A stretch of DNA of 64,000 bases. Source: Bacteroidales bacterium. GTDB taxonomy: Bacteria > Bacteroidota > Bacteroidia > Bacteroidales > UBA932. Location: the NCBI GenBank assembly GCA_017471965.1, contig JAFURF010000006.1:1-64000 (forward strand), in the 5' to 3' direction. Positions 3,143-63,304 of this stretch are shown here, piece after piece (positions within the stretch are counted from its first letter, which is position 1; each line of letters starts with the position of its first letter). The notes below the pieces were generated by a model, which saw only the letters and a program-made list of their open reading frames with translations, was not told the origin of the DNA and did not search any database. The position numbers were made by a program, and so were the translations under genes.

Positions 3143-4747
3143 ATGATCACACTAAGACCATATCAACAGGAGCCTGTAAGAAAGGCTATACAATACTTCG
3201 GGAGCGACAGCGCCGAACCGTCACTGATAGTCCTTCCGACAGCCTGGGGCAAGTCCATCCTGACCGCCTTCGTGGCTGCAAGCATCCCGCAGTATGAGAA
3301 ACTGCTGGTGGTACAGCCCTCCAAGGAACTGCTTGAACAGAACTATGCCAAGTACATGGCGCTCTGCGGTGAGCACGCCACGGCAGGAATCTACTCGGCG
3401 TCGTTCCGAAGAAAGGAATTCGAAAGGATCACATACGCCACGATCGGCTCCATCAAGGACATCGGGGCGACATTCCGTGAAATGGGATTCACGAAGATGC
3501 TGATCGACGAGGCGCATCTGTATCCCAGAAAAGAGGAGTCCATGCTCGGAAAGTTCCTGAAGGACGCAGGCATAAGCCAGGTGCTCGGAATAACCGCCAC
3601 CCCTCTCAAACTGGAACAGTTCGGCCAGAAGAACGGCGAAAGATTCGACAAGTGGTCGGAACTGCTGATGCTCACGGCTCCGTCCCCTACGGGAACCTTC
3701 TTCAAGAACATCCTCCATGTCGGCCAGATCCAGGAGATGACGTCAATGGGATTCTGGAGCCCCCTTGTATACGAACAGATACCGTTCGACACAAAGATGC
3801 TCAGGCTGAACACCAGCGGCAGCGAATACTCGGTCAATTCGATAGAGGAAGCATACAAACTGAACAACGTGCGCGCCAACATCTACGGTGCCCTCGATTA
3901 CCATCAGAGCAGGCGGCACTGCCTGGTGTTCGTCCCTTCGGTCGACGAAGCGAAGATCCTGGCCGACGGATATCCCGATTCCGCATACATCAGCGGGGAC
4001 ATGAACAAGAAGGACAGGGAAGCCGTGGTCAGCGGCTTCAGGGAAGGAAGGCTCCGTGTGGTCTTCAACGTCGGAGTACTGTCGACAGGATTCGACTATC
4101 CTCTGATCGATACGATAATCCTCGCATTCTCCACGTTCTCCGTATCCAAATACTACCAGATCCTCGGCAGGGGAGTAAGGATACATCCTGACAAGAAGGA
4201 CTGCCTCGTGATAGACATGGGAGCCAACGTGCTGCGCTTTGGCCACGTGGAGGAGATCCGGTTCGAAGACATCGGAAGATGGAGGATGTATGGAAGCGGC
4301 AACATGCTGATCACCGGAATCCCCGTGAACTGCATAGGAAGAATCACAAGAGAAGACATAACGAGGATATATTCTTATGCCCCATGGAAGTTCATATGGC
4401 AGAGCGGCAAATACAAAGGAAAGGACATCCGTGACACCCCGGTGTCATATCTGACATGGATGCTTACCAACCCTTCCATGAATCTTGCACAGCATGTGTC
4501 AGATGCCATCATCAAGACACTCGAGAATCATGTCAGGGATACACGTAACGAGCCCCCTGAAATACTTATGCCGGACGGCAAATATGCAGGAACCATGATC
4601 TGCGACGTGCCGAAGAACTATCTTGCCTGGTACTACAACTCGAAGGAATGGAACGAATGCAACGACTCCCTGAAAAGGGGACTTGAACTTGCCTATGGAG
4701 GCATTCCACCATACTTCAGTCCGAAGAAACGGGCAAAAGCAGGATAA
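3143..4747 (+). CDS. SF2 DEAD/DEAH-box helicase with C-terminal DUF3820-like repeats
   Basis: This 534-residue ATPase has the superfamily 2 motifs in order: an N-terminal RPYQQE Q-motif, Walker A PTAWGKS near residue 32, DEAH in LIDEAHLY, ITATP as motif III, and the arginine-finger motif QILGRGVRIH near residue 350. It resembles UvsW/SSL2-type helicases that remodel branched DNA. Two copies of a GKYxGxxxxDxPxxYLxW module follow (about residues 420-442 and 477-500), a DUF3820 / exonuclease-X C-terminal-like motif. A role in plasmid recombination or replication restart is inferred. A terminator hairpin follows at 4862. Confidence 0.85.
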   Translation: MITLRPYQQEPVRKAIQYFGSDSAEPSLIVLPTAWGKSILTAFVAASIPQYEKLLVVQPSKELLEQNYAKYMALCGEHATAGIYSASFRRKEFERITYATIGSIKDIGATFREMGFTKMLIDEAHLYPRKEESMLGKFLKDAGISQVLGITATPLKLEQFGQKNGERFDKWSELLMLTAPSPTGTFFKNILHVGQIQEMTSMGFWSPLVYEQIPFDTKMLRLNTSGSEYSVNSIEEAYKLNNVRANIYGALDYHQSRRHCLVFVPSVDEAKILADGYPDSAYISGDMNKKDREAVVSGFREGRLRVVFNVGVLSTGFDYPLIDTIILAFSTFSVSKYYQILGRGVRIHPDKKDCLVIDMGANVLRFGHVEEIRFEDIGRWRMYGSGNMLITGIPVNCIGRITREDITRIYSYAPWKFIWQSGKYKGKDIRDTPVSYLTWMLTNPSMNLAQHVSDAIIKTLENHVRDTRNEPPEILMPDGKYAGTMICDVPKNYLAWYYNSKEWNECNDSLKRGLELAYGGIPPYFSPKKRAKAG

Positions 4748-4910: not shown

Positions 4911-5003
4911 ACAAAAATGCCCCCACTGACGCGGGGGCTCAGGCTTCCTCGGTAATCCCGAGACCTACGGCATATAGCCTTATTGTATCAAGATGTATTT
5001 GTA
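4911..5003 (-). ncRNA. tracrRNA for the neighbouring Cas9
   Basis: Read on the minus strand, bases 5000-4982 (AAATACATCTTGATACAAT) pair with the 5' part of the CRISPR repeat: 16 positions pair, including one G-U, interrupted only by a UU/UU internal loop. Next comes AAGGCTATATGCC, the short stem typical of type II-C tracrRNA, then a CTCGG/CCGAG hairpin, and finally GCCCCC/GGGGGC followed by ATTTTTG, a terminator. A promoter fits 5-8 bases upstream. This gives a transcript of about 90 nt lying after the array, in the same orientation as cas9 and the array. Function: guide-RNA maturation and Cas9 loading. Confidence 0.9.
4913..4938 (-). terminator. Terminator of the tracrRNA
   Basis: On the minus strand GCCCCC (4938-4933), an eight-base loop and GGGGGC (4924-4919) are followed by ATTTTTG. 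It defines the 3' end of the tracrRNA. Confidence 0.85.
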
Positions 5004-5007
5004 CCAG

Positions 5008-5038
5008 CAAAAATAGGTATATTCTACCTCTTTGTCAA
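5008..5038 (-). promoter_or_regulatory. Promoter of the tracrRNA
   Basis: On the minus strand TTG (5038-5036) is followed after 20 bases by TATTTTTG (5015-5008), a TAnnTTTG -7 box. Initiation about 5-7 bases downstream would put the first nucleotide right before the anti-repeat. Confidence 0.7.
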
Positions 5039-5045
5039 GTGAATT

Positions 5046-5510
5046 TTCAAAAAATACTTTGTTTCTACATCAAGATACAACGCTGCACAAAGTTGGACTG
5101 TTAAGACCCCTTGTATATCACTCAAAAAAAATTACATCAAGATACAACAAAAAATCTCAAATCCATATATATTGAATGTTGTATATCACTCTAAAAATAC
5201 ATCAAGATACAACGGCTAGAAGGAAGTCTATAAAGCGACTCCAGTTGTATGTTACTTTAAAATTACACAAGATACAACCAATCCCAGTACTATAGACAAG
5301 ATAATCTCGTTGTATTTCACTCTAAAATCACATCAAGATAAAACCTTTATGTTCCAAACTATTCTTAACAATGGTTGTATGTCACTCTCAAATTACATCA
5401 AGATACAACAATAATGAAATCATATTCAAAATATCGTGGTTCTCTCCCGCCTAAAGGCAGGGAGAGAATCACATACTATTCTTACCTTCAAAATTGCATC
5501 AAGGTACAAC
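5046..5510 (-). CRISPR. Short type II-C-like CRISPR array, five regular spacers
   Basis: Repeats of about 36 bp (minus-strand form begins GTTGTATCTTGATGTAAT and ends ACATACAAC) lie at 5374-5409, 5309-5344, 5244-5278, 5178-5213 and 5110-5148, with spacers of 28-30 nt. A last repeat at 5046-5081 keeps only its tracr-pairing half. A degenerate repeat at 5475-5510 begins the array next to cas9 and is followed by a 65-nt interval containing a strong hairpin (5440-5469) instead of a normal spacer. Repeats have drifted at several positions, suggesting no recent spacer acquisition. No adaptation genes are nearby. I saw no exact match of a spacer elsewhere in the window by eye. Confidence 0.93.
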
Positions 5511-5534: not shown

Positions 5535-8500
5535 CTAATCACGCTCGATGAATTGAATCCTACCAAGAGGGGAGATTATGAAATCATAACCTTCCACCAA
5601 AGCCTTTATCTGCGTGTGCAGCATCTTTAGCAATCCCTTGTAGCATCCGTCATTCTTCCACGCTCCGGAAGCCGTCGTCAACTCAGAAGTGTTCCTTGAT
5701 TCCGCATGATGTCTAAAGGAGAGTGCACCATAATGATAAACTTTTCCATTGTTTCTGACATCCGACCTTGAAAGGCCGATCACCCTGTAAAGCCTTCCGG
5801 ACAGTTCCTCGTAAGAACAGTTTCTGACCTCCTCTGGACTGTCCTCATAGAAAAGCACCATGGTCCCCTGCTTCAAGACATACTTCAGAGACATCCCGTC
5901 CTTTTCAGGTTCCATCAACATGCGTCTGCCCGATCTGCCGACATAATGCATGGAGGCGTCGAAGTTGGTTATCAGTTCGAACGACCTCTCCTCCTTTCCG
6001 TTCTTACCGGCTCCGGAATAGATGGCGACGGCATAGTTGCCGTCATTAACGACATGCACATGCCTCTTATGGCCGGAAACAGAAACATCACGGTGCGGCT
6101 TCAGGTCGATTGCAGTACGGATGTCAGTATAAAGCCTCACCTTCCTGATCGGGATCCCCAGTTCCTCATTCATCATTATCCCTTCTGCAACCGCAGCCTT
6201 CAGTCCCTTTTCGGCAACAGCCTTCTCCACCTTGCCCCGTACGGCATCGTCGACTATCCTGCCGACCTCCTTCTCATTTATCTTGTCAAGTCCCTTCCTG
6301 ATGACGTAGTACCGCACTCCGTCCCTCACGATCGAACCGTATAAGGTCTCTTCGTGCAGCCTGCACCTTGCGGTATGGCCCTGCGCATACATCACTTCAC
6401 CCCTGCTGTTCTTCTGCACTACCCCGCGCTTCCTGACCTTCTTTCTGGAATTCTTGCCGATAAACGACTGAGCACGATAAGGTATGAGCAGGGCCTGCAC
6501 TTCCGAACGGACATCCGACACGAAGCCCCGCCAAGGCGTCTCGACGAGAGCGTCGGGAGCCTTATGATACTTATGCTCGTCAGTATCTCGGAGGAACCTC
6601 GCAAGCAGGTCATAATCCTTCTTACCGACACAGGCCAACGTGATGGCGTTCACCGCATGGCAGGCGTAACTCGATCCCTTCAGTTCACAATATAACTTCT
6701 CCACACCCCACATGCTGCGGAACGCGGCAGTAGTCAGGTCCTTCATCGGATAGACCTTCGTGAACAGGGACTTCAGATATTCATATGCAAACCTCCTCAC
6801 GACAGAGGTGTTCCCTCCTTCCATGCCATACCTGATCCTCGACGGCTCCCTCGTCTCGAAACACCTTATCTTGTTCTCCAGATAGGCCAGCCGCAGTTCC
6901 TTCTTCCTTCTCGCCACCATCATCCTGTCCCTGGCCTCCTTCTCCATGTATCCATGGTTCCTGGTCTTCTCGATGTCCCTTCTCAGACGGTCCGCCTCCT
7001 CATTCCATCCGAACCCCTTCACCGCGTCCAGGATTGCGGCATGTTCCGGCATCTCCGAAGGCAGTCTCATGTGCTTCCTCTCCCTGTTGTACTTCATGTC
7101 ACAGAGCACCATGTTCGTCTGCGACTTCTCGCCGCCGCGTGACAGCGGCAGGATATAATCCAGTTCACAGTCAGGATTCATGCCCAGGAAATCGTCAATT
7201 TCGATCTGACGCAGTGTATAAGGACACGTATGGTTCTGCTCCTCCCACAGACGGTACTTAAGTATATCATCCTCGGTAGGGACGAATCCGTCTCCCGCAT
7301 ACTTGCGAATCTCCGCTGCGAATCTCCTGTTTTCCTCTTCCCGATTCCTCTGATACTCCGCTATCGCCTTGCGGGAGTTCCGGTCATTCAGTTCCCTGGA
7401 CAGTTCGATGTTCACCTTCGTGTTCTCATCGATCTTACGTTCTGCAAGCAGTCCGTTCAAGAGCGTCCTGAGCATGAACAGCGTCCTCATTGCCATAGGG
7501 TTCTTCAGTCCCGGCACCCTCGGAGAGTCCAACTGCCTCACCCCGGCCTTTCTTCCTGTCGCTGGACGGTAGGCGCTCTCCCTGCCGTCATGCATCCACT
7601 CTATCCTGCCGAACCTCACGCCCGGACAGTCCTTCAGGAAGTCCTTCACGGAATTCCTTACGGTCTTCCTGCGGTTGCCGAAGACGTCGTATTCTCCGTC
7701 ACGCACGATCTTCGACACCTCCTCCTCGACGTAATGCAGATAATCCGTGTCACTCCTGTCCCTCATCAAAGCGCGCAGTCCGGAGAGCATGACTGCCTCG
7801 TCATACCGGCAGCCCCTCCTCAGGAACGGCAGCATCTTCCTGATCGTCCTCAGGCTTACAGATCCATATCCGTCCGGCATCTCGATCGAAACGAACCTGG
7901 CAGCATCACCGGCATCCAGTCCGAGCCTCTCCCTGGCCCACTGCTCCAGCCTGTCGTCGTCATTGAAATCCGACAGAGCATGCCATACGTCATTGACGAT
8001 CTCATCCTTCGTCTTGCCGTCTCCGAGCGTGTATGCCCTGCAGAGCGCGTCCTCCCAGTCCTCGCCGAACACCGACATGAGTCCCGCCATAACCTGGCAG
8101 GTGCCGAACGTCTGATACATCCTGTAGTTGAAGACATACGGCTTGTCCATGCCGTCGCCTGCGCTGCAGTAGTTGCCCTTGCCCGCAATCTTCTTCGCAA
8201 TATCCTCAAATTTGAATGACGACTTGCTCTTCCTGTAGAAGAGGACAGCGGCCTTCTGTCTCTCGACTGCATCCAACGGTCTGAAATCTTCGTCGGATGC
8301 GGTCTTCACACGTATGTTGTTCAGATCCTGAAGCATCCTGAACTCCTCATATGCCGGGTGCGACTTCTGGCACCGTCTGCGCGAAGGATCCACGCTGCAT
8401 CTTCCGACCGCCCCCTTCTGCGACTTCGGACTCCTCTTGTGGAAAATGACTTCGTGCAACGCATCCCTGATGTCCGCGTCTACCCGCTGCCTGTCGCAGA

Positions 8501-9173
8501 TGGCGTCAAACTCCTTCTCGTAATGCGCCTCACGCGCCGTGTAGAGCCCGCGCACCTTCCTTCCCTGCCTGTGCATCTTGTAGAGGTATTCCCCGAGATA
8601 GGCGCACCCGGCATTCCTCATGTCGGAATCAAGAGCCGCAATGCCCGTAAGGACCGCTCCGTCATCCTTCCCCTTCCCTGACTTCCTGTTGCTCAGAAAG
8701 CCTCTGCGCTGCGCCATATGATACATGGCCCTTCCGAACGCATGGCGGTCAGCCTCAATGCCGAAATCCAGCCTCTCCGTCAGGCAGCGGTACCTGTCGT
8801 GATAAGGGTTCCTGTCCGCTTCTGCGTCAACCTTCTGCCACTCGAAGAACTCCTGCCTGTAAGGATACACCTTCTTCTCCTTCCACGCCGCAAGTTCGTC
8901 GTCGCTCACGTAAGGGCACATGCCGTTCCTTACAAGCACCTTCAGCAGTTCGATCTTGCGGAGCCTCCTCCGGAAGTAGTTCCTGCGCTGCGACCGTGCC
9001 AAGGTCCTTGCCTGTGTCATCGGCTCCTCACCGTTCTGAGTGTGCATGACACCATCCTTGAACCTGAACACGCCACTGTCCACCAATGCCGCATCCAGAT
9101 TCTCATCTCTTGATACAATGGCCCAGCCTATCGCGCTGGTGCCCAGATGAAGCCCTAATGTCTTTGTCTTCAT
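5535..9173 (-). CDS. cas9: Cas9, type II-C-like, with substituted RuvC and HNH catalytic residues (predicted nuclease-dead)
   Basis: The 1212-residue protein has the full Cas9 plan. RuvC-I reads TLGLHLGTSAIGWAIV, with His9 (codon CAT) where Asp is normally catalytic. The arginine-rich bridge helix (RSQRRNYFRRRLRKIELLK) is intact. RuvC-II VNIELSRE keeps Glu590. The HNH core reads CELDYILPLSRGG, with Tyr673 (TAT) replacing the catalytic His; the later NRERK Asn is kept. RuvC-III reads ACHAVNAITLAC, keeping His839 but with Asn842 (AAC) replacing Asp. The C-terminal region looks like an ordinary Bacteroidetes Cas9, ending EGYDFIISPLGRIQF. There is no frameshift. Start chosen at MKTKTLGL; ATG at 9179 is two codons upstream. 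It very likely binds guide RNA and DNA without cutting. Confidence 0.95.
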   Translation of the reverse strand: MKTKTLGLHLGTSAIGWAIVSRDENLDAALVDSGVFRFKDGVMHTQNGEEPMTQARTLARSQRRNYFRRRLRKIELLKVLVRNGMCPYVSDDELAAWKEKKVYPYRQEFFEWQKVDAEADRNPYHDRYRCLTERLDFGIEADRHAFGRAMYHMAQRRGFLSNRKSGKGKDDGAVLTGIAALDSDMRNAGCAYLGEYLYKMHRQGRKVRGLYTAREAHYEKEFDAICDRQRVDADIRDALHEVIFHKRSPKSQKGAVGRCSVDPSRRRCQKSHPAYEEFRMLQDLNNIRVKTASDEDFRPLDAVERQKAAVLFYRKSKSSFKFEDIAKKIAGKGNYCSAGDGMDKPYVFNYRMYQTFGTCQVMAGLMSVFGEDWEDALCRAYTLGDGKTKDEIVNDVWHALSDFNDDDRLEQWARERLGLDAGDAARFVSIEMPDGYGSVSLRTIRKMLPFLRRGCRYDEAVMLSGLRALMRDRSDTDYLHYVEEEVSKIVRDGEYDVFGNRRKTVRNSVKDFLKDCPGVRFGRIEWMHDGRESAYRPATGRKAGVRQLDSPRVPGLKNPMAMRTLFMLRTLLNGLLAERKIDENTKVNIELSRELNDRNSRKAIAEYQRNREEENRRFAAEIRKYAGDGFVPTEDDILKYRLWEEQNHTCPYTLRQIEIDDFLGMNPDCELDYILPLSRGGEKSQTNMVLCDMKYNRERKHMRLPSEMPEHAAILDAVKGFGWNEEADRLRRDIEKTRNHGYMEKEARDRMMVARRKKELRLAYLENKIRCFETREPSRIRYGMEGGNTSVVRRFAYEYLKSLFTKVYPMKDLTTAAFRSMWGVEKLYCELKGSSYACHAVNAITLACVGKKDYDLLARFLRDTDEHKYHKAPDALVETPWRGFVSDVRSEVQALLIPYRAQSFIGKNSRKKVRKRGVVQKNSRGEVMYAQGHTARCRLHEETLYGSIVRDGVRYYVIRKGLDKINEKEVGRIVDDAVRGKVEKAVAEKGLKAAVAEGIMMNEELGIPIRKVRLYTDIRTAIDLKPHRDVSVSGHKRHVHVVNDGNYAVAIYSGAGKNGKEERSFELITNFDASMHYVGRSGRRMLMEPEKDGMSLKYVLKQGTMVLFYEDSPEEVRNCSYEELSGRLYRVIGLSRSDVRNNGKVYHYGALSFRHHAESRNTSELTTASGAWKNDGCYKGLLKMLHTQIKALVEGYDFIISPLGRIQFIERD

Positions 9174-9240: not shown

Positions 9241-10380
9241 CTATTGGCATGTCGCCGCTTTCTGACCGATGCCTGTGGATAAGCCCAGAGCCTTGATGTT
9301 CCTTGCTGCGTTCACATCCCTGTCGTGATGTCCGCCGCATTCAGGACATGTCCATTCTCTGTCCTTCAAGGTCAATTCCTTGTTGACATATCCGCAAACG
9401 GAACACTTCCTGCTGCTCGGTTCGAACCTGCCGATCATCACCACGTTCTTGCCATGCCATTCCGACTTGTATTTCAACTGTCTGACAAACTCATTCCAGG
9501 CGACGGAACTGATCGCCATTGCAAGGCAATGATTCTGCAACATGCCTTCGATGTTCAAGTCCTCAAGACAGACCGTATCATACTTCCGCACAATGTCTGT
9601 GGTCAGTTTATGTAAATAATCAACTCGCTTGTCTCTGATCCTTCTATGCAGTTTCGCTATTTTCAGTTTTGCCTTCTCGCGGCGCCTGCTGCCTTTCTGT
9701 GTCTTGGCGAAACGCTGCTGCAATACTGCAAGATGGTTTTGTTCCCTTTCAAGGAACTTGGGGTTGTGGTACTTTGTCCCATCAGACAGAATGGCATAAT
9801 CCTTTATACCCAGATCGATCCCGACAGCCGTCTCCTCACATATCTTGGCTTTCGATACCTGAGGCTTGCTGTCGTCGACTACTATGGTACACCAGTAATC
9901 GCCGCACTTGTCTCTTGACACTGTCAAAGTACCTAACTTCACTTCGTTCACATCAAACGTCTGATGTTCGAAGAACTTCACTTTCCCTACACGTGGAACG
10001 GATACCCTCCTTTTTTCAAAATCAAAGTGGACCGAACCGATGAATTTCACTGAATCGCGGGAGAATTTCTTCGACTTGAACTTAGGGAAACCTTTCTTCT
10101 CCTTAAAGAACCTTTTATAAGCACTGTCAAGGTTTCTCAATGATTGCTGAAGACATACGTTTGCACAGTCCTTCAACCAATCATGTTCGCCGTCCTGCTT
10201 CAATAGAGTAAGTTCTTTACATAACTGCAGAAAAGTCACATTCTTCTTGTCCTTCTCCCAACTTTCCTTCTTCCTGTTCAGCCCCCAATTGTATATGAAA
10301 CGAGCATTACCAAACGCCTGAGACAACATCTTGCGTTGCTTCATCGTAGGATTCAGTTTATATTTATATGCTCGTATCAT
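9241..10380 (-). CDS. tnpB: TnpB, IS605-family RNA-guided nuclease (OrfB)
   Basis: The 379-residue protein starts MIRAYKYKLNPT, the usual TnpB beginning, so this ATG is preferred to one six codons upstream. It has the N-terminal helix-turn-helix/wedge segment, RuvC-I GIDLGIKDYA with Asp, RuvC-II VCLEDLNIEGM with Glu, a zinc finger CSVCG...CPECG and RuvC-III HDRDVNAARNI with Asp near residue 355. All catalytic residues are present, unlike the Cas9 downstream. No tnpA transposase is nearby, so it is an IS1341-type, non-autonomous arrangement. Its guide RNA would be expected around the 3' end (9180-9300). The cas9 start is only 67 bases downstream. Confidence 0.92.
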   Translation of the reverse strand: MIRAYKYKLNPTMKQRKMLSQAFGNARFIYNWGLNRKKESWEKDKKNVTFLQLCKELTLLKQDGEHDWLKDCANVCLQQSLRNLDSAYKRFFKEKKGFPKFKSKKFSRDSVKFIGSVHFDFEKRRVSVPRVGKVKFFEHQTFDVNEVKLGTLTVSRDKCGDYWCTIVVDDSKPQVSKAKICEETAVGIDLGIKDYAILSDGTKYHNPKFLEREQNHLAVLQQRFAKTQKGSRRREKAKLKIAKLHRRIRDKRVDYLHKLTTDIVRKYDTVCLEDLNIEGMLQNHCLAMAISSVAWNEFVRQLKYKSEWHGKNVVMIGRFEPSSRKCSVCGYVNKELTLKDREWTCPECGGHHDRDVNAARNIKALGLSTGIGQKAATCQ

Positions 10381-10406
10381 ACAAGGTGTCAGTTGCATTT
10401 TTTTAA

Positions 10407-10574: not shown

Positions 10575-11618
10575 TCATTTTCTCTTATTTTTTTTGTTGA
10601 TATTAAGAACCTCCTCCATAGAGATCCCGTCATGTATAAGAAGATCCTCTATCAGATCAACCTGTGTCCCTGATTCTATAAGGCGTCTGTAAGTCTCTAT
10701 CTTCCTCTGCCTGTCGTCCTCCTCCTTGAGGAAACCCGCCTTCCGGAAACATTCCGTAAGATAGGCTCCCGGATGACTTACTCGTGTACCGTTATTGACC
10801 GCCTGTATGGCGAAGTCCATTATCTTCCGCACATCACTCATCGTGCATCCCTCCGCATGCAGCCTCTCCACCATCTCCTCGGAAATCCCGCGGCTTACCA
10901 GTTCCTTCTTCATCATGAGAAGTTCAATGTCACTGCTGTAATCCAGAACGTCATTGCAACGCTTCCCCTTCCTAACAGCAAACTTGACATGAGTCACGCG
11001 TTTCCCGGTCTTTATCCATTCCGCTCCGACGTTTATCTCCGTGTTCTCGTTGATGTCCGCAACGGCACGAGTGACGAGACGCTTAAAGCCGCCTATACCG
11101 TCCGACTTATCCTTTCTCTCGTACTGAAGGATGGTCATCAACTTGTCCACCTCATACACGTATCCCCCCAGCCTCTTCCATCTGGCAAGGGAGAGGTACA
11201 GCCTCTTCGAATACTTGCCGTTCAGACGGAAACCGCTGGCCAACTGCAATGAGGTGTACTCGCTCTTCAGGTCGCAGAGTATCGGTATCAGATCCTGATT
11301 TATCGTCACTGTCATGAGGCCGTCACGCATCCTGAGGCTGACGAACAGAAAGAACGTGTCCCAGTTGTTCTCGCTCCTGATATCCTCATACGGCCTCTTA
11401 CCCAGACTCACTATGCTCTCTCTGAAGCGTGTATTGTTTATCTCCCTCCCGCTAACAGCCTCGATGTCCGATACCTTGAACGTGTATTCCAGCCGGTCAT
11501 TCCTGATGATGGACATCAGAAAGAACAGGATGTCCATCTCTTCCTGAGTGTACTTGAACACCAGGTCAGTGAAATGATTGGCGACACGAATAATCTTATT
11601 GCTTGAAGCGTTACCCAT
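10575..11618 (-). CDS. Plasmid replication initiator, Rep_3 / RepB family
   Basis: The 347-residue protein starts MGNASSNKIIRVANHF; a longer frame adds 31 phenylalanine-rich residues that look non-coding. Two winged-helix domains are suggested: an N-terminal part (EEMDILFFLMSII, VSDIEAVSG) and the typical NGKYSKRLYLSLARWK helix followed by DKLMTILQYE. The C-terminal extension is helical. Proteins of this family bind iterons and open the origin; the matching iterons start 144 bases upstream. A weak promoter may be TTTTTG-N20-TAATTTTTTTG on the minus strand near 11663-11696, so autoregulation by iteron binding is plausible. Confidence 0.88.
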   Translation of the reverse strand: MGNASSNKIIRVANHFTDLVFKYTQEEMDILFFLMSIIRNDRLEYTFKVSDIEAVSGREINNTRFRESIVSLGKRPYEDIRSENNWDTFFLFVSLRMRDGLMTVTINQDLIPILCDLKSEYTSLQLASGFRLNGKYSKRLYLSLARWKRLGGYVYEVDKLMTILQYERKDKSDGIGGFKRLVTRAVADINENTEINVGAEWIKTGKRVTHVKFAVRKGKRCNDVLDYSSDIELLMMKKELVSRGISEEMVERLHAEGCTMSDVRKIMDFAIQAVNNGTRVSHPGAYLTECFRKAGFLKEEDDRQRKIETYRRLIESGTQVDLIEDLLIHDGISMEEVLNINKKNKRK

Positions 11619-11761
11619 AAAAGCAAAAAACTTAAAATGTTTTTGAAACACCGCAAAAAAAGCAAAAAAATTATTGTTTGTCAAGAAAAATGGCAAAAAG
11701 GTTATTTTCATATATAAAATCAGTCATGTATGACATCGACGCAAGGATGTCATATATGGGT

Positions 11762-23633: not shown

Positions 23634-26633
23634 ATGTACAGAATAATACCACAGAACATTCCGCAACATAAAAGGGCAGAAATCAATGAGAAGATACTCT
23701 TCTCCCTCTCCACTTCCAGACCGCTCCCTCCTGAAACCGTATACAACTGCTATACCGGTGACGGAGGCCTGCATGGCCTGAACAGAAACGACTACCAGTC
23801 CTACCATGCTTACGCGGAAGCGAAGAAAGAGATCGAGAACGGCCAGTTCCTTACGCCTCATGCGCTGTGCCGCGACCTGGTCGCCATGCTGGACGTCAAG
23901 GCAGACGAGACGGTCATCGAGATGTGCTGCGGTACCGGAAACTTCATCAACTGGCTGCCAAACCAGAACGCCGTAAGAGCGTTCGACGTGGACGCCAAAG
24001 CCGTCATCGTCGCAAAATACCTGTATCCTGAAGCGGAAATCACACGAGAGGACCTTGCAATCTTCGAGAGCCGTCAGAGGTACGACATAGCCATCGGAAA
24101 CCCTCCGTTCAACCTGACGATTGCAGGAGAACTGTCGCAGATGCTCTGGCTGAACAAGTCGGCGCGATGCCTTGCCCCAGGCGGACTGCTCATGGCGATA
24201 GTCCCGGCCTCGTTCCTTGCAGATGCCTTTCAGGACAAGACGAGGATAGAGGAGGCAGGAAGACATCTTTCCTTCATCGGGCAGGCTCTCCTTCCTGAAG
24301 ACGCCTTCGCCGCTTCAGGTGTCGATTCATTCCAGACGAAGGTCATGGTCTTCCACCGGAAGGCCGACTGTCTGGAAACAGGTTCCTACAGTCCTGAAGA
24401 TGTTATCACCATAGATGTCCTCACTCAGAGGATAAGGGATTACAGGGCACTCAAGACATCCAGACGTCTTGACCTAAGGCGTGAAACCAGAATCATCGAC
24501 GAAGCGGAGTCGGAAGCGTTCGAATACAGGCTGGCCAAATATATGTATGAACTCAGGACTCATGAGGCCCTTCACAAGCATGTGGACAGCGCCATGGCCC
24601 TCGTCGCAAAGTACAGGAACCAGCAACCGCCCGAGAATGCAACGAAAGAACAGTATGAACACTGGGAAAAGACCCGTCTCCGTCCTGCAGGAGTGCTTGC
24701 CGTACTCCGAAGATACATAAGGGAACAGAACCGCAAGACACGCAGGGAAGTATCCCTGGTGAAGACAAACTACTCCTTCAAACTGAAGCAATACAGTCCG
24801 AGGCTTCTCGACAAGACCGAACAGCGGACCATACCGATAAGGGACCTCGTCATATACAGTTCTTCCGCTCTTCCTGTCTCGCTTGACAAGACCACCGCAC
24901 CTCCGGATCAATACAGGGCTGCAATGAGAATGATACGGAAGAAGCGAGAAGAATTCAAAAGGATGACAATCCCACTGGAAGAGCACGTCCCTTCACCGGA
25001 GCATCTGCAGTACGTCGAGGATGCGACATTCATCAACGCCGAAGGCACCGTATGCCGCTTCACCGAACTCCAGAAGAAAGATCTCGCCGTAATACTGGGC
25101 CGTGAACGGTGTCTGCTGAACTGGCAGCAGGGGTCGGGCAAGACCGCCGCCGTGTTCCACAGGGCGAGATACCTCAGTGACAGACATCTTGTGAAGAATA
25201 CGCTGATAGTCGCTCCGCCAATCGCCGTAAGGATGACATGGGAGCCATTCCTCAGACGTAACGGAATCAGGTCCGTCACCCTCAGGAAACACAGTGACCT
25301 TGATTCGGTCGCCGACGGCACATTCATTGTGATTCCGACCACAATGCTCGCCAGATACCGGTATCAGATAAGACGGTTCGTCAAGACGCGCTGCAGAAAA
25401 CTCTGTCTGGTCTTCGACGAGTCGGACGAACTCACCAACCCTTCATCACAGAGAACACGTCTGGTCCTGTCCCTGTTCCGTCGTCTGCGATACAAGGTGC
25501 TGGCAACAGGTACCACCACCAGAAACAACATCGCCGAACTGTACAGCCAGTTGGAACTGCTTTACAACAACTCACCGCTGATGACCTGCTGGTGCTCGAG
25601 GCGCTATGAGACGGACAGCGAAGGAGATCTGATAGCCATTCCTAATGAAATGTACAGAACGCCGTTCCCTCCGCGAGGAGGATACCGGCTCTTCAGGTCA
25701 TGTCACTGTCCTGTCAAGACAACGGTCTTCGGCATAGAGAAGATGAACCAGGATGTCCGGAACGCGGATGCCCTCAGGGAAATCATCGACAGGACTATCA
25801 TAACAAGGAAGTTCAAAGACTTTGCCGGAGACAGGTATACGGTAAGATGCCATGCCGTCACGCCGTCGGAAGCCGAGGCGAAGGTCTACGACAAGGTGAT
25901 AAAGGAATTCCACCAGATATGCCATGTCTACTTTCATGACACGGGAAACTCCAGAAAGGAAGCAGGTCTGATGCTTGCACGGCAGATCCGTCTGCTCATC
26001 CGTGCCTGCTCCACTCCGAACCTGATGGAAGGATACGCAGGGACGTCGCTCCCGGTCAAGACCGGACGCATCGCGTCGATCATCGCCTCCTGCCAGGGAA
26101 AAGTCGCCGTCGGATGCACAAGCCTCGAGGCCGTGCAGATGTACCGGGACTTTCTTGAGAAGGAATTCCCGGCCAGAACGGTACATGTGGTGACAGGCGA
26201 AGTGGACTTCAAGAAACGTTCGGAGATCACCGGCAGGTTCAACGCATCCTCGGATGACATCCTGGTATGCACGCAGCAGAGCCTTTCCAGTTCGGTCAAC
26301 ATCCCTGACTGTGACGATGTCATCATAGAATCACTGCAATGGAACATCCCGCGTATGGAACAGTTCTACTTCAGGTTCATAAGGCTGGATTCAAAGAACA
26401 GGAAGAACATCCATTTCGTCATATACACGGATTCCATCGAACAGAACCTGATGGCCCTGGTGACAACGAAGGAAAGGCTGAACGACTTCATCAGGACAGG
26501 CAGCGTCAAATCCGAGGAAGACATCAATGACGAATTCGGAATAGACGAAGACATGCTCCGCTCGTTCCTAGGAAAGGAGACGGATGAGAAAGGACGCGTG
26601 AGCCTGACCTGGGGGCATCAGAAGGTTTCATGA
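23634..26633 (+). CDS. N6-adenine methyltransferase fused to an SF2 helicase
   Basis: The 999-residue protein has two parts. Residues about 60-280 are a gamma-type adenine methyltransferase: motif I VIEMCCGTGNF and motif IV AIGNPPFNL. Residues about 480-950 are an SNF2-like helicase: Walker A WQQGSGKTAA, DESD in LVFDESDEL, ATGTTTRNN as motif III, and a C-terminal RecA lobe with CTQQSLSSSVNIPDCD; an arginine-rich end replaces the usual QxxGRxxR. No specificity subunit or nuclease domain is seen, so it could be an anti-restriction DarB-like or epigenetic factor. It is the largest gene in its unit. Confidence 0.85.
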   Translation: MYRIIPQNIPQHKRAEINEKILFSLSTSRPLPPETVYNCYTGDGGLHGLNRNDYQSYHAYAEAKKEIENGQFLTPHALCRDLVAMLDVKADETVIEMCCGTGNFINWLPNQNAVRAFDVDAKAVIVAKYLYPEAEITREDLAIFESRQRYDIAIGNPPFNLTIAGELSQMLWLNKSARCLAPGGLLMAIVPASFLADAFQDKTRIEEAGRHLSFIGQALLPEDAFAASGVDSFQTKVMVFHRKADCLETGSYSPEDVITIDVLTQRIRDYRALKTSRRLDLRRETRIIDEAESEAFEYRLAKYMYELRTHEALHKHVDSAMALVAKYRNQQPPENATKEQYEHWEKTRLRPAGVLAVLRRYIREQNRKTRREVSLVKTNYSFKLKQYSPRLLDKTEQRTIPIRDLVIYSSSALPVSLDKTTAPPDQYRAAMRMIRKKREEFKRMTIPLEEHVPSPEHLQYVEDATFINAEGTVCRFTELQKKDLAVILGRERCLLNWQQGSGKTAAVFHRARYLSDRHLVKNTLIVAPPIAVRMTWEPFLRRNGIRSVTLRKHSDLDSVADGTFIVIPTTMLARYRYQIRRFVKTRCRKLCLVFDESDELTNPSSQRTRLVLSLFRRLRYKVLATGTTTRNNIAELYSQLELLYNNSPLMTCWCSRRYETDSEGDLIAIPNEMYRTPFPPRGGYRLFRSCHCPVKTTVFGIEKMNQDVRNADALREIIDRTIITRKFKDFAGDRYTVRCHAVTPSEAEAKVYDKVIKEFHQICHVYFHDTGNSRKEAGLMLARQIRLLIRACSTPNLMEGYAGTSLPVKTGRIASIIASCQGKVAVGCTSLEAVQMYRDFLEKEFPARTVHVVTGEVDFKKRSEITGRFNASSDDILVCTQQSLSSSVNIPDCDDVIIESLQWNIPRMEQFYFRFIRLDSKNRKNIHFVIYTDSIEQNLMALVTTKERLNDFIRTGSVKSEEDINDEFGIDEDMLRSFLGKETDEKGRVSLTWGHQKVS

Positions 26634-32609: not shown

Positions 32610-33524
32610 ATGAACACAACAACACGCACGTCCGCTTCCACATCGACAAAGAAGCAACCGATGGACGTATACAAGGAGGTGACGAAAAGAATCGTCATGC
32701 GTCTTGCAGAAGGCGATATCCCATGGAGAAAGCCATGGAATGCTCCATACAAAGAGGATGTCATAAACTATAAGAGCCGTAAACCATATAACGGCATCAA
32801 TAGGTTCATCCTCATGCAGCCGGGAGAATACATGACCTTCAACCAATGCCGTGAAGCGGGAGGACACGTACTCAAAGGGGCAAAGGGACACCTGATAGTA
32901 AAGTACGGATTCTTCGTACCGAAGGAAAACAAGGCCAAGGCGGAACAACTCAAGAGCGAAGGAAAGGACATCTCCCATCTTGAAGTCCCTTACCTGAAGC
33001 ATGACTGGGTATATCATATATCCCAGACAGAAGGCGTTAAGACGCTGTGTGAGAAGACCGACACTAAGCCGGCCCAGAATCCCGTCGATTACGCGGAATT
33101 CATCATAGAGAACACCTGCAGGGAAAAAGGACTGATCCTCAATGTGTCCGGAGTGGACTGCTGCGGATACGACAATGCAAACCGCACGATCACCGTTCCG
33201 AACAAGGACCAGTTCCGTACAGAAGAGGAATTTTACAATGCCGTCTTCGTCCAGATCGTCAGCGCCACGGTTGACGACGCTTCGCAGAAGTCCCGCAGCA
33301 AGGCGGACGAGATAAAGGAAGCCCTTGTCATCGAGATCGGAGCCTCGATGCTGCTTAACGCAGTAGGGCTTGAAAGAACAGAAGCCTCGGAGAATACACA
33401 GGCAAAGTGTCAGGAATGGATAGCCCAGATGAACAGGGACGTCCGGCTCGTCATCAGCGCTTCGTCCCAGGCTGAGAAGATCGCCAGGGAAATCGTCTCT
33501 CCTCTTTTCGGAGAATCAGAGTAA
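32610..33524 (+). CDS. ArdC-like protein with a lost zinc-peptidase site
   Basis: The 304-residue protein has an N-terminal ArdC ssDNA-binding domain: VYKEVTKRIVMRLAEGDIPWRKPW, YNGINRFIL, ECMTFNQ-like and GHLIVKYGFF. The C-terminal half aligns with the ArdC metallopeptidase, but where HELxHST is expected it reads VFVQIVSATVD, so both His ligands and the catalytic Glu are gone; the later EALVIEIGASMLL helix remains. ArdC proteins protect incoming plasmid DNA from restriction. This one probably acts through DNA binding only. It is a single gene after leader element 5. Confidence 0.8.
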   Translation: MNTTTRTSASTSTKKQPMDVYKEVTKRIVMRLAEGDIPWRKPWNAPYKEDVINYKSRKPYNGINRFILMQPGEYMTFNQCREAGGHVLKGAKGHLIVKYGFFVPKENKAKAEQLKSEGKDISHLEVPYLKHDWVYHISQTEGVKTLCEKTDTKPAQNPVDYAEFIIENTCREKGLILNVSGVDCCGYDNANRTITVPNKDQFRTEEEFYNAVFVQIVSATVDDASQKSRSKADEIKEALVIEIGASMLLNAVGLERTEASENTQAKCQEWIAQMNRDVRLVISASSQAEKIAREIVSPLFGESE

Positions 33525-50705: not shown

Positions 50706-51827
50706 ATGATAAAGATTGACAGAAACACTCTCATAAAACGGATACAGCCTCTCCTGAGAGTCGCGACAATAAAAGGGCTGCCCGTCTATGAATGCGTCCT
50801 GATGGAGGCAAGAAAATACGAAGATACCATCAGGCTGTCCTGCACCAACGGTGACATAGCAGTCACCTGTACTATGTCTCTGCCTGAAAAGTCACCGGAA
50901 CACTTCCTCACCTGCGTCCCTGCACGGCTGCTGGCAGACATGTTCAAGCAACTGCCGGAAGGCGAAGTGACGCTCGAACACACGGAGCAGGGACTGGCCG
51001 TAATCTGGAATGCAGGCCGGTCGAGCCTGTATACGGTGGACTGGCTTGACTTCCCTTCATCACAGAAGATAGAAGAGAAGACGAAAGGAACCCTACGGAA
51101 CGAAACGCTTTCAGGGGCCTTAAAGAGCGTCATAGGATCGACGGCAGACGACAGTTACGGCAGACCGGCACTATCCTCCATCAACTTCGACTGTCTCGGA
51201 GGAATCCTGAACATAGTGGCCTCGGACTCGCACCAACTGATGTGCGTGACCATGAATGCGGAAGTCCCTGACGGTTCGTTCCTGCTGCCGGAGGCTGCCG
51301 CACAAGTGCTGAAAGGCATTCTGGCAGAAAGCCAGGAAGAAACAACCGAACTGTCCTGCGATGACGTTCACGTGCTGTTCAGGTCAGGAGAATACTCAAT
51401 GACCTCGAACCTCGTGAATGCAAAGTTCCCGAAATACAGGGGAATAATCCCGACTACTCCGGAAGGCATCCTGACGATAGACAAGGCGCTTCTGACTGGA
51501 ACAATAAAGCGGTCCCTTGTGTTTGCCAACAAGGAGCACAGCAACATCATAATGACCTTCTCGGAAGGGAAGGTGACATTCGAGGCGAAAGACCTCATGT
51601 ACGGGATGCAGTGTACCGATGTCATCGGCTGCGATTATTCCGGTCCGAAAATCTCGGTGAACATCAAGGGGCATACGTTGTTGGGCATCATCGCCAGCAT
51701 GCAGGGTGAAAGAGTGGAACTGGGAGTCACCGAAGGTATAAATCCTCTACGAATCAGACCGGCAGAACAGGAGTCCGAAAACGAATCACAGGTCGCTGTC
51801 CTGATGCCACTGATAATTAAAAAATGA
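50706..51827 (+). CDS. dnaN: DNA polymerase III beta subunit (sliding clamp)
   Basis: 373 residues with three clamp domains: an N-terminal IKIDRNTLIKRIQPLLRV, a central domain with ALSSINFDCLGGILNIVASDSHQLM, and the C-terminal GILTIDKALLTGTIKRSLVFANKEHS. Chromosomal DnaN normally ends in a short PMR(L) motif; here the end reads VAVLMPLIIKK, a close variant. The clamp tethers DNA polymerase to its template. Plasmid-borne clamps are rare. It lies in one unit with rnhA, and two SSBs and UvrD are elsewhere on the element. Confidence 0.9.
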   Translation: MIKIDRNTLIKRIQPLLRVATIKGLPVYECVLMEARKYEDTIRLSCTNGDIAVTCTMSLPEKSPEHFLTCVPARLLADMFKQLPEGEVTLEHTEQGLAVIWNAGRSSLYTVDWLDFPSSQKIEEKTKGTLRNETLSGALKSVIGSTADDSYGRPALSSINFDCLGGILNIVASDSHQLMCVTMNAEVPDGSFLLPEAAAQVLKGILAESQEETTELSCDDVHVLFRSGEYSMTSNLVNAKFPKYRGIIPTTPEGILTIDKALLTGTIKRSLVFANKEHSNIIMTFSEGKVTFEAKDLMYGMQCTDVIGCDYSGPKISVNIKGHTLLGIIASMQGERVELGVTEGINPLRIRPAEQESENESQVAVLMPLIIKK

Positions 51828-59490: not shown

Positions 59491-61437
59491 ATGAAGTACT
59501 TTTTCTTCCAGACCTCCGAGCAACTCAGAGGAGGCGACATGAAGCCGACGCTCAGAGCCCTTGCCGGCCAGACATTCGAAGACGGCACAGCAGTAGATGT
59601 CAGCCTGAACGTCCAGGCCCCTAAGACGCAAGGCGAATCCATCAACGGAAACAGGATGGACTATCCTCTAGGAACGTTCTTCTGTTCAATGAACCTCCGT
59701 AAGGTTAAGACGTCTAACGGAGTGGAATACTACTCAGTCTATGATGAAAAGGGAACCAAGGATCCGGACTTCCACCCCGTAAGTTCAGATCCGAACTTCC
59801 AGTATGCCGCTCCTGAACACAGAAGCGACCATATGAACGCCGCATTCGCTCTCTTCGAGGCAGGCATAGACCCGACACCTGAAGAAAAGCCCAAGCCTTC
59901 GGCAAAGACAAAGAAGGCTTCCGCTCCTGTCAGGCTGTCACCGGCAGACAAGAACGGCATGGCACGAGAAGAGGACCCGAACTGGGAGGAGAAATACCAG
60001 GGGCAACTCGAGGACGAACTGACGCTCTTCGGCAACTGGATAAGGAAGATATTCGCAGAAAAGAAGGTGAACCTTCCTAACAGGATCGTCATGGGTGCCG
60101 TCCAGGGGACGTTCGACGCCCTTCACAGGATGGGCGAGACGCTGGACACCATGATGTCCAGGGAAAGGTTCGAGACTTTCCTCAAGAGCGAGAGGCTCAC
60201 ATACGATGACTTCGCAGCCCTTGTCGGAACCGGTCCGCACAAGAAATACCTTGCATGGATGTATGATGAACATCAGCAGAAGAAGGTCTGCACTGCAGTG
60301 GAAAGGAATCCCGACAAGAAGAACGAACTTCTTGACGCATCGATGACCCTCTGCCAGAGCCACAACATCATATCCGGCGGGATGTCGGCATCAGACGGGA
60401 AGGACACTCTTTCCAACCTGAAGGCAGCCATGAAGGCCGGCTGGACGCTTGACCAGATGCTAGACCCGGAAACGATGAAAATGGGCGACTCATATCCTGA
60501 GTACGTCAAGAAACTCGCGGACGGCACAATCCCTCTGCCTGAAGAGGCTGTCGATCCGGGAGCATCCTTCATCGATACGCTCATGGCGGACAAGAAAAAC
60601 TCAAGACCGAAGGACAAGGATGGATTCCACGTAGAGGAAAACACATGGAAGATCCTCCTACGTAACCTCAAGAGGGGAGTGTCCACCATGCTCATCGGCC
60701 CTTCCGGCTGCGGAAAGACCGAAGTCATCCTCGAACTGTGCAAGAAGACCGGAACGCCATGGACGATAGTCCAGATGGGAACGATCACCGACCCGACGGA
60801 ACAACTGGTAGGCCAGCAGCGCCTCAGGGTCAATGACCAGGGACACGACGAGATCTACTTCGACTGGTCGGAATTCGCTCTCGCCATCCAGAGACCGGGA
60901 GTCATCATCCTGGACGAGATAAACCGAATCCCAAAGAACGGAGAAAACATGCTCTTCAGTTGTCTGGACGGCACACGCGAACTGTCCGCCTTCGGAGCCG
61001 GCAGCGACCAGAACAGGACCATCAAGGTGCATCCGGAATGCGTGTTCTTCGCTACGGCAAACATCGGCAGCATCTTCACCGCCACCAAGCAGATCGACGC
61101 TGCCATGATGAACAGGTTCTTCGCCGTAGAGGTCGGCTACATGCCGATGGCGGTAGAGAGCAAGATGCTCGTGTACAGGACGAAGATCGAGGAGGAAGAT
61201 GCAAAGAACATCTCGTTCGTGGCGACACAGATCAGGGACATGTACCGCAAGGATTCCATCGACAACGTCATCTCCACACGAGAGACGCTCCGCTGCGCCT
61301 CGCTTGTCAAGGACGGCTTCCCTTGCCTTGAGGCAATGGAGATGTGCTTCCTTCCTGTCTTCGAGGACGGAGACGGCGAATCCGACAGGGCTAAAGTCAA
61401 GAAAGTCATAATGCAAAGATTTAATACACATGCATAA
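59491..61437 (+). CDS. CobS/MoxR-like AAA+ ATPase
   Basis: 648 residues. The N-terminal 380 are a unique region: a strand-rich domain (about 1-115), a Lys/Pro linker and a helical domain. The C-terminal part is a MoxR-type AAA+ module: Walker A IGPSGCGKTEV near residue 402, Walker B VIILDEINRIP, sensor FFATANIGS and the arginine-containing MMNRFFAVEVGYMP. This is the CobS/CbbQ/MoxR group, which works with a VWA partner to remodel another protein or insert metal. The next gene, overlapping by eight bases, encodes such a partner. CobS/CobT-like pairs occur in large phages and plasmids; their target is not known. Confidence 0.85.
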   Translation: MKYFFFQTSEQLRGGDMKPTLRALAGQTFEDGTAVDVSLNVQAPKTQGESINGNRMDYPLGTFFCSMNLRKVKTSNGVEYYSVYDEKGTKDPDFHPVSSDPNFQYAAPEHRSDHMNAAFALFEAGIDPTPEEKPKPSAKTKKASAPVRLSPADKNGMAREEDPNWEEKYQGQLEDELTLFGNWIRKIFAEKKVNLPNRIVMGAVQGTFDALHRMGETLDTMMSRERFETFLKSERLTYDDFAALVGTGPHKKYLAWMYDEHQQKKVCTAVERNPDKKNELLDASMTLCQSHNIISGGMSASDGKDTLSNLKAAMKAGWTLDQMLDPETMKMGDSYPEYVKKLADGTIPLPEEAVDPGASFIDTLMADKKNSRPKDKDGFHVEENTWKILLRNLKRGVSTMLIGPSGCGKTEVILELCKKTGTPWTIVQMGTITDPTEQLVGQQRLRVNDQGHDEIYFDWSEFALAIQRPGVIILDEINRIPKNGENMLFSCLDGTRELSAFGAGSDQNRTIKVHPECVFFATANIGSIFTATKQIDAAMMNRFFAVEVGYMPMAVESKMLVYRTKIEEEDAKNISFVATQIRDMYRKDSIDNVISTRETLRCASLVKDGFPCLEAMEMCFLPVFEDGDGESDRAKVKKVIMQRFNTHA

Positions 61438-63304
61438 ACAAAAACCGACCGCCGGCCAGATCGAACTGCTCATGTCCGACTGGCTGGCCAACCTGCGCGA
61501 ACAAGGGTCCTTCGTCCATAAAAACGACAAGGGCGCCATAAGGCGCAAAAAGACCGACAACTACTCAGACTACTTCACCAAAGGAATGAGTCTGACATCC
61601 ATGCTTGACGTCCTCAGGAACGCACGTGAGATAGCACAGGGTACCGTAGACTCCATGACCTCGGTTCCCGTACGTGTCGTACTAGGCGGTGACGGATCGG
61701 CGACGGACGGCAAGACCATAGTCATCGCTACAGACTACTTCGACAGAGAAGACCTGTCGATAGGTGACAAAATAGATATACTCACGGGATACTCCGTCCA
61801 TGAGGCAGCGCACATCAACCTTACCGACATGGAAAGCACTCCGGAGTTCATCGGATCTTTCCCTCCGGCAGAAAGGGAGACGGCGATGGCCGTACTGAAC
61901 ATCCTCGAGGACGAAAGGATAGAATACCTTACGGGAGAGGAACGCCCCGGACTGATGGACTTCGTCGCAACCGTCAAGGACTTCCTCTGGCGCAGATACG
62001 AACAGGCCGGGTCCGTAAACGAGAAGGTGACCGAACCCCTGCCACGCTTCATCAATACTCTCCTTTCGGCGGTAAGGTTCCCTTCAATGCTCACAGAAGA
62101 GATGGTGACCGAGAACTTCCAGGAACTCATGGCAATCAGAAAAGTACTGATGCCGTATCCTCTCAGTGTCGAAGGAGTCAGGATTGCCACAAAAAAGATC
62201 ATGGAAATCATGAAGGACATGGTCCGCAAAGACCTGGAGGAAAAGCAACAGCAGCAGAACAGCCAGTCACAGGACGGACAGCAAGGTCAGCCAGGCCAGG
62301 GCCAGGGCTCGCCGAACGGAAGTCCACAGAAAAAGCCTACCGCAAAAGAAGTCAACGAGGCTATGAAAAGCGCCCTGTCCTCGAAGCAGATGCAGGAGAC
62401 ACTCAAGGCCGTAAATGCCGCTGCGCCCGAACAGGCCCAGGGAACAAAAGACAAGGCCGAATGCCTGAGGACGAACAACGACGGCGACAAGAAATACGTC
62501 GACGGTGATGCGGAAAAGATAACCGCAACCGGAGCCGGGACAGGAAGCATATCCTACATGATAAGGCCCAAAGGGAACCAGACGAAGTACTCGAGGTCCT
62601 ATGCCAGAATCAAATCCCATGTCGCCGCCATACGAAAGGCACTCATCTGCCATTCGCAGACAAGGGAATATGAACTAAGAGGCGAAAGGAACGGACGTCT
62701 GGACACCAACAAACTGACCTCGCTCCGTCAGGGAAACCGCAACATATTCACCCGCCAGGGAGAAGTCACCTGCGAAAAGGCCAGCATATGCATCCTCATA
62801 GACGAATCCGGTTCCATGAGGGGATCAAGGATCGAAGCGGCACGAGAGACGGCTATCCTGATCCGCGAAGCCGTGAAGACCATCGAGAGCCTCGACCTCT
62901 TCATCTACGGATTCGGAGGAAACGAGATGCACCTGTATCAGGAAGGCCGAAAGGCGGACCGCTATGCCCTGGGCTCCCTCGTCGCCGACGGCGGCACCCC
63001 TACCGGGGAGGCGATGCAGATTGCATACCGCAAGATGGCGCGCCATTCATACCCGGCGTCGCTGATGCTGGTCATCACTGACGGTGATCCAGACCGTAAC
63101 AGCGCGGTCATTGAAGCGGACGCCATGCTGAGGAAGAAAGGCGTCATCCCGGTGGGCATCGGAATAGCAGGATGCAGGGCCGTCACAAGAATCTTCAAGG
63201 AGAACGTCGTGATAGACGACCTCTCGCAACTGGCTCCGCAACTTGGAAAAATCACCAAGAAACGCCTGACAAAGATGATGGAACGACATGACAGTCTGGC
63301 CTGA
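61430..63304 (+). CDS. CobT-like VWA protein with HExxH motif
   Basis: 624 residues. SVHEAAHINLTD near residue 125 is a zinc-peptidase-like HExxH. A glutamine-rich, low-complexity linker (about 265-300) leads to a C-terminal von Willebrand factor A domain: CILIDESGSMRGSR (MIDAS DxSxS), DGGTPTGEAM and VITDGDPDRN. This is the CobT/phage CobT layout. With the AAA+ protein it should form a MoxR-VWA chaperone pair. Start overlaps the previous gene by eight bases. No chelatase large subunit (CobN/ChlH) is present. Confidence 0.85.
   Translation: MHKQKPTAGQIELLMSDWLANLREQGSFVHKNDKGAIRRKKTDNYSDYFTKGMSLTSMLDVLRNAREIAQGTVDSMTSVPVRVVLGGDGSATDGKTIVIATDYFDREDLSIGDKIDILTGYSVHEAAHINLTDMESTPEFIGSFPPAERETAMAVLNILEDERIEYLTGEERPGLMDFVATVKDFLWRRYEQAGSVNEKVTEPLPRFINTLLSAVRFPSMLTEEMVTENFQELMAIRKVLMPYPLSVEGVRIATKKIMEIMKDMVRKDLEEKQQQQNSQSQDGQQGQPGQGQGSPNGSPQKKPTAKEVNEAMKSALSSKQMQETLKAVNAAAPEQAQGTKDKAECLRTNNDGDKKYVDGDAEKITATGAGTGSISYMIRPKGNQTKYSRSYARIKSHVAAIRKALICHSQTREYELRGERNGRLDTNKLTSLRQGNRNIFTRQGEVTCEKASICILIDESGSMRGSRIEAARETAILIREAVKTIESLDLFIYGFGGNEMHLYQEGRKADRYALGSLVADGGTPTGEAMQIAYRKMARHSYPASLMLVITDGDPDRNSAVIEADAMLRKKGVIPVGIGIAGCRAVTRIFKENVVIDDLSQLAPQLGKITKKRLTKMMERHDSLA

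Follow-up and report, generated by a model that had tools for sequence, protein, structure and literature searches.

The window analysed here comprises the first 64,000 nucleotides of contig JAFURF010000006.1 from a Bacteroidales bacterium (lineage UBA932, assembly GCA_017471965.1), and its subject is a cas9-like gene that lies beside a short array of clustered regularly interspaced short palindromic repeats (CRISPR) and a gene for trans-activating CRISPR RNA (tracrRNA). The cas9-like gene spans 5535..9173 (-) and encodes a protein of 1212 aa (TIGR01865, 362.5 bits) in a frame that is open from end to end. By sequence and fold the product is a type II-C Cas9, but the intact RuvC and HNH active sites that characterize the type are lacking. 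Three catalytic residues are replaced: the RuvC-I Asp by His9 (codon 9147..9149 (-)), the HNH His by Tyr673 (7155..7157 (-)) and the RuvC-III Asp by Asn842 (6648..6650 (-)), each read from the codon and from alignments. The RuvC-II Glu is retained as Glu590 (7404..7406 (-), codon and alignment).

At column 9, 114 of the 120 nearest proteins listed have D and 5 have H, with one gap. At column 673, H is found in 116, Y in 3 and F in one; at column 842, 116 have D and the other 4 have N; and column 590 is E in all 120. ThermoCas9, for which a structure has been solved, aligns with D, H and D at columns 9, 673 and 842. Protein P0001, which is 98% identical and comes from other data, has the same residues as the window Cas9, and an assembly error is therefore unlikely. 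An earlier note on this DNA had described a naturally nuclease-dead Cas9 with an intact frame of 1212 residues, these three losses and a retained Glu590, and had named an alignment of the three columns as a check. D, H and D are expected at these columns and all three are replaced, so that the observation of a naturally inactivated-looking Cas9, with three residues replaced in an intact frame, is confirmed.

A clade of Cas9 proteins with replaced catalytic residues

Two protein searches returned seven other proteins with the same pattern (P0001, P0002, P0003, P0121, P0004, P0124 and P0016); only candidates sharing most words were scored and the best 120 listed in each search, and more dead members may exist. 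The six relatives other than P0001 are 47-52% identical to the window Cas9. P0124, which is missing its N-terminus, is the sole partial member, and the remaining frames of the clade are full length. All 7 members that are readable at column 9, the window protein among them, have His there. At column 673, Tyr or Phe is present in 7 of 8, P0002 (His) being the exception, and at column 842 all but P0016 (Asp) have Asn, again 7 of 8.

The eight dead rows form a single branch in a tree of 60 rows, with a Shimodaira-Hasegawa-like approximate likelihood ratio (SH-aLRT) support of 100. The branch persists in trees of 30 rows built without the five catalytic columns (SH-aLRT 100) or without the active-site neighbourhoods (SH-aLRT 99). 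The trees of 30 rows were made by a quick method, with SH-aLRT support and no bootstrap. Tree paths from the window protein to P0002, P0003, P0121, P0004 or P0124 amount to ~1.5-1.8 changes per site. Judged from these trees, the dead Cas9 is a member of a deep single clade and not one broken gene. The earlier note had not noticed that dead relatives occur.

Among the whole genomes searched, a member of this clade is present in the own genome only. With a profile of the dead proteins, only the own genome reached at least 2200 bits among 400 genus and 398 family genomes (overlapping sets), the next score being 1692. All 16 loci fetched from genus and family genomes besides the own genome carry D-E-H-H-D and are active by residues. 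Among 52 loci from genome_contigs, all that could be read have the active residue: D at column 9 (50 of 50), H at column 673 (46 of 46) and D at column 842 (44 of 44). No dead relative was confirmed in viral_contigs; 51 plasmid records gave a match, none of them covering 80% of Cas9, and the one phage record with a match also covered less than 80%.

The proteins of this clade might be altered enzymes rather than dead ones, still nicking DNA through HNH in members such as P0002, or using an unusual RuvC site that contains His. His9 is invariant rather than drifting, P0002 keeps H673, and N696 and E590 are kept in all six full-length dead rows compared. Set against this are the Tyr or Phe in place of the HNH His and the loss of D842, each in 7 of 8 members, as well as the loss of R784 in six of six full-length rows; we regard an altered activity as very unlikely. 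P0002, with a dead RuvC site and both the His and the Asn of HNH kept, is nevertheless a possible natural nickase in its own right.

Conserved and altered regions

Retention of amino acids was used as a stand-in for the ratio of non-synonymous to synonymous substitution rates (dN/dS), and was compared between 6 full-length dead rows and 127 active rows. Conservation in at least 97% of active rows was found at 373 sites, of which 226 show no change in any of the 6 dead rows and 28 differ in every one of them. Dead rows retain the active residue most often in the bridge helix (0.90), the recognition (REC) lobe (0.88) and the C-terminal part (0.84), followed by RuvC-II (0.83) and RuvC-I (0.81), the lowest values being those of RuvC-III (0.58) and the HNH core (0.72). 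The bridge helix and C-terminal region, which the earlier note had described as intact, are largely kept. At 13 sites all 6 dead rows have one identical new residue, which looks like re-specialisation rather than decay. These sites include a change of Arg784 to Met, and Arg784 may correspond to the arginine beside the RuvC site known as R976 in SpyCas9. As far as retention indicates, the parts that bind guide and DNA are kept while the neighbourhoods of the active sites have changed.

Two cassettes of array and tracrRNA

The mini-array beside cas9 (array 1) lies at 5066..5510 (-) and consists of seven repeats with spacers of 28-30 nt. Its repeats recur on the minus strand at a spacing of ~65 nt, and the array proposed earlier is real. 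The first and last repeats comprise only the 5' half, and the middle repeats, of 35-39 nt, are degenerate. Tandem Repeats Finder, when run on the window, did not pick up this degenerate array, and scans of the window for Rfam families and tRNAs were empty. A GC-rich hairpin between the first two repeats (5440..5474 (-)) is possibly the terminator of cas9. Sequence of the same type recurs elsewhere on the contig (C29, 129,989 bp), near 94,860 and at 106,087-106,109, and is perhaps a shared terminator.

The tracrRNA gene (4912..5005 (-), ends approximate) comprises an anti-repeat (4982-4997), a nexus-like hairpin, and a terminator hairpin followed by a T run. A promoter-like element, TTG-N20-TAnnTTTG, is found 5' of it at 5008..5038 (-). 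A pattern of this type occurs 21 times on the two strands of the 130-kb contig. Of the tracrRNA with promoter and terminator that had been proposed, the anti-repeat, hairpin and terminator therefore stand, while the promoter-like element is weak alone, yet occupies the same place in both cassettes described here. On the minus strand array 1 runs directly into the tracrRNA gene, and the two form one cassette, which the earlier note had missed together with a second such cassette ~90 kb away on the same contig (C29:94968-95335 (-)). The second cassette, downstream of a parA-like gene, contains four repeats and its own tracrRNA. Apart from a 9-nt gap, the two cassettes are nearly identical in promoter, last half-repeat and tracrRNA; the spacers are unrelated. 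A gene for a RadD-like helicase (3143-4747 (+)) adjoins the tracrRNA gene of the first cassette and is transcribed towards it.

Pairing of CRISPR RNA and tracrRNA

The tracrRNA is predicted to pair with the array repeats, as in other type II-C systems. For comparison, 25 active loci with both a repeat and an anti-repeat were available. At positions 6-8 of the repeat in the CRISPR RNA (crRNA) these have GGT (23 loci), GGC (1) or GAT (1), and the facing anti-repeat is ACC (15) or ATC (10); all three positions are paired in 24 of the 25, in some of them with G-U as the middle pair. The dead system combines a repeat with ATC and an anti-repeat with GAT, and so departs from the active form on both strands of three adjacent base pairs. 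Predicted duplex energies are -15.8 kcal/mol for the dead system's own pair and -17.9 for the active pair, against -10.2 and -8.0 for the crossed pairs. When the dead tracrRNA is combined with an active repeat, the short duplex has -10.2 rather than -15.8 kcal/mol and the whole fold -47.5 rather than -53.0. These models provide good evidence that the crRNA:tracrRNA pair has been maintained and is partly orthogonal.

Such pairing bears on a possible role as an anti-CRISPR sponge, in which a dead Cas9 together with its tracrRNA would sequester crRNAs that belong to the active Cas9 of the host, as envisaged for the phage-encoded subtype II-C2. That subtype is the closest published RuvC-dead Cas9, the gene studied here is likewise located on a mobile element, and its tracrRNA would still pair with active repeats, if more weakly. 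The anti-repeat, however, departs from those of all 25 active loci and is compensated in the system's own repeats, which is the opposite of the perfect anti-repeat of II-C2; this comparison rests on the active loci of relatives, the host's own array, if any, not having been seen. That the dead system maintains its own tracrRNA pairing argues against a sponge, as do the two own arrays on the contig and the additional loss of the HNH His in 7 of 8 members, and we consider this role quite unlikely.

Alternatively, the system might be a relic, i.e. a plasmid-borne type II-C system in decay after the loss of cutting. Degenerate repeats and few spacer targets would fit a relic, and of the adaptation genes cas1 and cas2 the search covered cas1 alone, with a negative result in the own assembly (64% complete). 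On the other hand, long frames have been kept over the tree paths given above, guide-binding regions are retained, the RNA pairing is compensated, and the block of promoter and tracrRNA is nearly unchanged in two otherwise diverged cassettes. Simple decay is thus highly improbable.

Spacer targets

Spacers C-F were searched against 310 genomes; the genus-wide searches did not extend to guides A, B and G of array 1 or to the first guide of array 2. As a whole, array 1 was compared with the own genome and with G227, and array 2 with the own genome and 393 genomes of the order. Spacer D (5279..5308 (-)) matches AbiH, a phage-defence gene, of the same-genus genome G227 at 30 of 30 bases (E 8.3e-9 for one genome), and does so in 1 of the 310 genomes. 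The AbiH gene is situated on a chromosome-like contig of 187 kb, next to an Eco57I-type methylase and other genes that may form a defence region; PADLOC gave no name for the AbiH protein. The crRNA of spacer D has the template-strand sequence and would pair with the coding strand of the gene. Pairing with the coding strand is the orientation that favours repression by nuclease-dead Cas9 (dCas9).

Two other spacers of array 1 have weak matches to the same AbiH gene, spacer B (5410..5439 (-)) at 21 of 30 bases, within ~20 bp of the spacer D site, and spacer C (5345..5373 (-)) at 20 of 29. Within the stretch of the G227 contig compared, their best matches fall in the AbiH gene and on the same strand. 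Shuffled sequences reached these matches in 3 of 200 and 2 of 200 cases, respectively, and other windows of 1.4 kb gave at most 18, in statistics uncorrected for the ten other guides tested. The 3' end of spacer B has no match to the gene. The matches of spacers B and C are thus only suggestive.

Spacer E (5214..5243 (-)) has a 13-nt match, anchored at its 3' end, to the element itself (C29:118030-118042), where a DUF3853 gene of the tra region has its start codon, with a TraM and a DUF4138 gene on either side. This match raises the possibility that the guides act on the plasmid, for instance to dampen transfer genes or tune copy number, and both cassettes are close to plasmid maintenance genes (rep, parA). 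We count against such self-regulation that ~0.04 matches of this kind are expected by chance, that no other guide has at least 11 seed bases on the contig outside the arrays, and that nothing points to the rep region. Regulation of the own element is unlikely on this balance, and the plasmid copy control suggested by the earlier note has gained no support.

No convincing match to any spacer was found in phage and plasmid records, and an exact scan of viral_contigs with 20-24-nt pieces at or near the 3' ends of six spacers was negative for all six. The matches of array 2 in the 393 genomes of the order were weak away from the tracrRNA region. End matches of spacer F were dropped as A+T-rich. 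For spacer 2 of the second cassette, an exact match of 21 nt was found in 15 of 380 same-genus genomes; 4 of the 15 were read, and all 4 lie in an rpsS-like frame (L121 1371-1652 and three alike, named by eye). This target was counted as weak, as the 5' end and 1-2 bases at the 3' end mismatch (23-25 of 29 bases match) and the target is absent from the own assembly. The search for spacer targets that had been proposed has thus produced one exact target, in AbiH, which is in line with the suggested repression of host or rival genes, while most guides remain without an exact one.

The plasmid-like element

The Rep_3 replication initiator gene (10575..11711 (-), PF01051, 73.7 bits) provides a plasmid context for cas9, and the contig also carries ParA-like, TraM and DUF4138 genes. 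By gene content the contig is a conjugative plasmid-like element. Between cas9 and the rep gene, ~70 bp upstream of the dead cas9, there is a TnpB gene (9241-10398 (-)) with three RuvC motifs in place (GIDLG, CLEDL, DRDVNA). An ArdC-type anti-restriction gene (32610-33524) on the same element would be in keeping with counter-defence. Other genes include a fusion of DNA methylase and SNF2-like helicase of 999 aa (23634-26633), 14 kb from cas9, and, unexpectedly for a plasmid, a DNA polymerase sliding clamp (50706-51827) and a pair of AAA and VWA (CobS/CobT-like) genes (59491-63304).

Proposed function

The three replaced residues, taken together with a crRNA and tracrRNA that have been re-paired to each other, suggest that this is a plasmid-borne, RNA-guided DNA-binding repressor, which likely blocks genes without cutting; we put the probability of this reading at roughly 70%. 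The dead Cas9 would load its own crRNA:tracrRNA and bind matching DNA, would no longer cut it, and would lower transcription of the target. The plasmid would likely benefit from the silencing of host or rival genes, perhaps defence genes. As the exact target is on a chromosome-like contig of the same genus, the host would be spared by a protein that does not cut. Selection for guided binding without cutting, as put forward in the earlier note, is supported by the deep clade, the kept binding regions and the compensated RNA pairing.

Several observations weigh against such a repressor. Within the clade P0002, with its HNH His, could nick DNA, and P0016 keeps the RuvC-III Asp. Only 1 of 11 guide-length stretches has an exact target, and this in a single genome of those searched with spacers C-F. 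The host's own AbiH gene has no match to the guides, and the host's assembly (64% complete) contains no long match to any spacer of arrays 1 and 2. Spacer D may also record past immunity to an abiH-carrying element. In addition, 3 of the 7 repeats of array 1 are predicted to pair more weakly with the tracrRNA (-9.2, -9.6 and -11.5 versus -15.8 kcal/mol), and two of these three are the repeats that follow spacers C and D; the repeat after spacer D (5244-5278) is without one base in the pairing part.

The purpose of counter-defence, which rests on the one exact target, is the least secure step. With this in mind we offer a broader scenario tentatively, as one that might well prove wrong: a Cas9 lineage would have lost cutting once, re-paired its RNAs in a way that avoids cross-talk with the active Cas9 of the host, given up adaptation, and spread in the form of portable cassettes of array plus tracrRNA, with which conjugative plasmids could silence AbiH or other defence genes of the host. 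This would amount to a natural CRISPR interference (CRISPRi) used for counter-defence. A clade in which most members have lost both sites, and which has own guides and an RNA pairing that is partly orthogonal, would open one more way to nuclease-free CRISPR on plasmids, next to types IV and V-M, and what such systems silence would become directly testable. Engineered dCas9 is a central research tool, and the dead clade offers evolved dCas9 scaffolds. No paper that names a naturally dead Cas9 was found in the open-licence part of PubMed Central (PMC), preprints being outside the scope of that search.

Comparison with known systems

The nearest active kin are the type II-C CRISPR-Cas9 systems of Bacteroidales (43-48% identity), which share the repeat frame and the nexus-like hairpin. 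Their active sites are intact, unlike those of the window Cas9. In the active loci looked at (e.g. L041) the tracrRNA gene is a short way upstream of cas9 and on the opposite strand, with the array elsewhere, whereas array and tracrRNA form one cassette in the window. The lack of a detected Cas1 in the incomplete host assembly is a further difference.

Plasmid-borne CRISPR effectors that repress without cutting are described for type IV-A (PMC11551745) and for type V-M, i.e. Cas12m (PMC11656645), and a natural chromosomal target is described for IV-A1 (PMC11551745). As far as these descriptions go, the window system differs in that its effector is a Cas9 that uses a tracrRNA. TldR proteins are nuclease-dead TnpB repressors, in which an inactivated RNA-guided nuclease has been kept as a gene regulator (PMC13418256). 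The window Cas9 resembles TldR, so described, in being an inactivated RNA-guided nuclease, but TldR is derived from TnpB. TldR is not known to come with a CRISPR array or tracrRNA.

Among the reports compared, in the passages that deal with these systems, the nearest is that of II-C2, a phage-encoded II-C Cas9 with a dead RuvC, an apparently active HNH and no array, which has been proposed to act as an anti-CRISPR (Altae-Tran 2023, PMC10910872; Makarova 2025, PMC12669027). Its tracrRNA is perfect to the host repeats in one case, and its loci are reported with an SNF2 helicase (PMC10910872; PMC12669027). Both systems have a type II-C Cas9 on a mobile element, a dead RuvC and a tracrRNA nearby. 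In place of an active HNH, the window protein has Tyr673, and the HNH His is lost in most of its clade. Instead of lacking an array, its element has two, and it is plasmid-like (Rep_3, ParA-like, TraM, DUF4138) rather than of phage, with no relative confirmed in viral_contigs. As opposed to the perfect anti-repeat of II-C2, that of the window differs at three positions from 25 of 25 active loci of relatives, the active array of the host itself, if any, not having been seen. With regard to the SNF2 partner, the window has its SNF2 and methylase gene at a distance of 14 kb, and a RadD-like helicase adjacent to the tracrRNA. P0002, in which RuvC is dead and the HNH His kept, could be a link to II-C2, as known here from descriptions of that subtype and not from its sequences.

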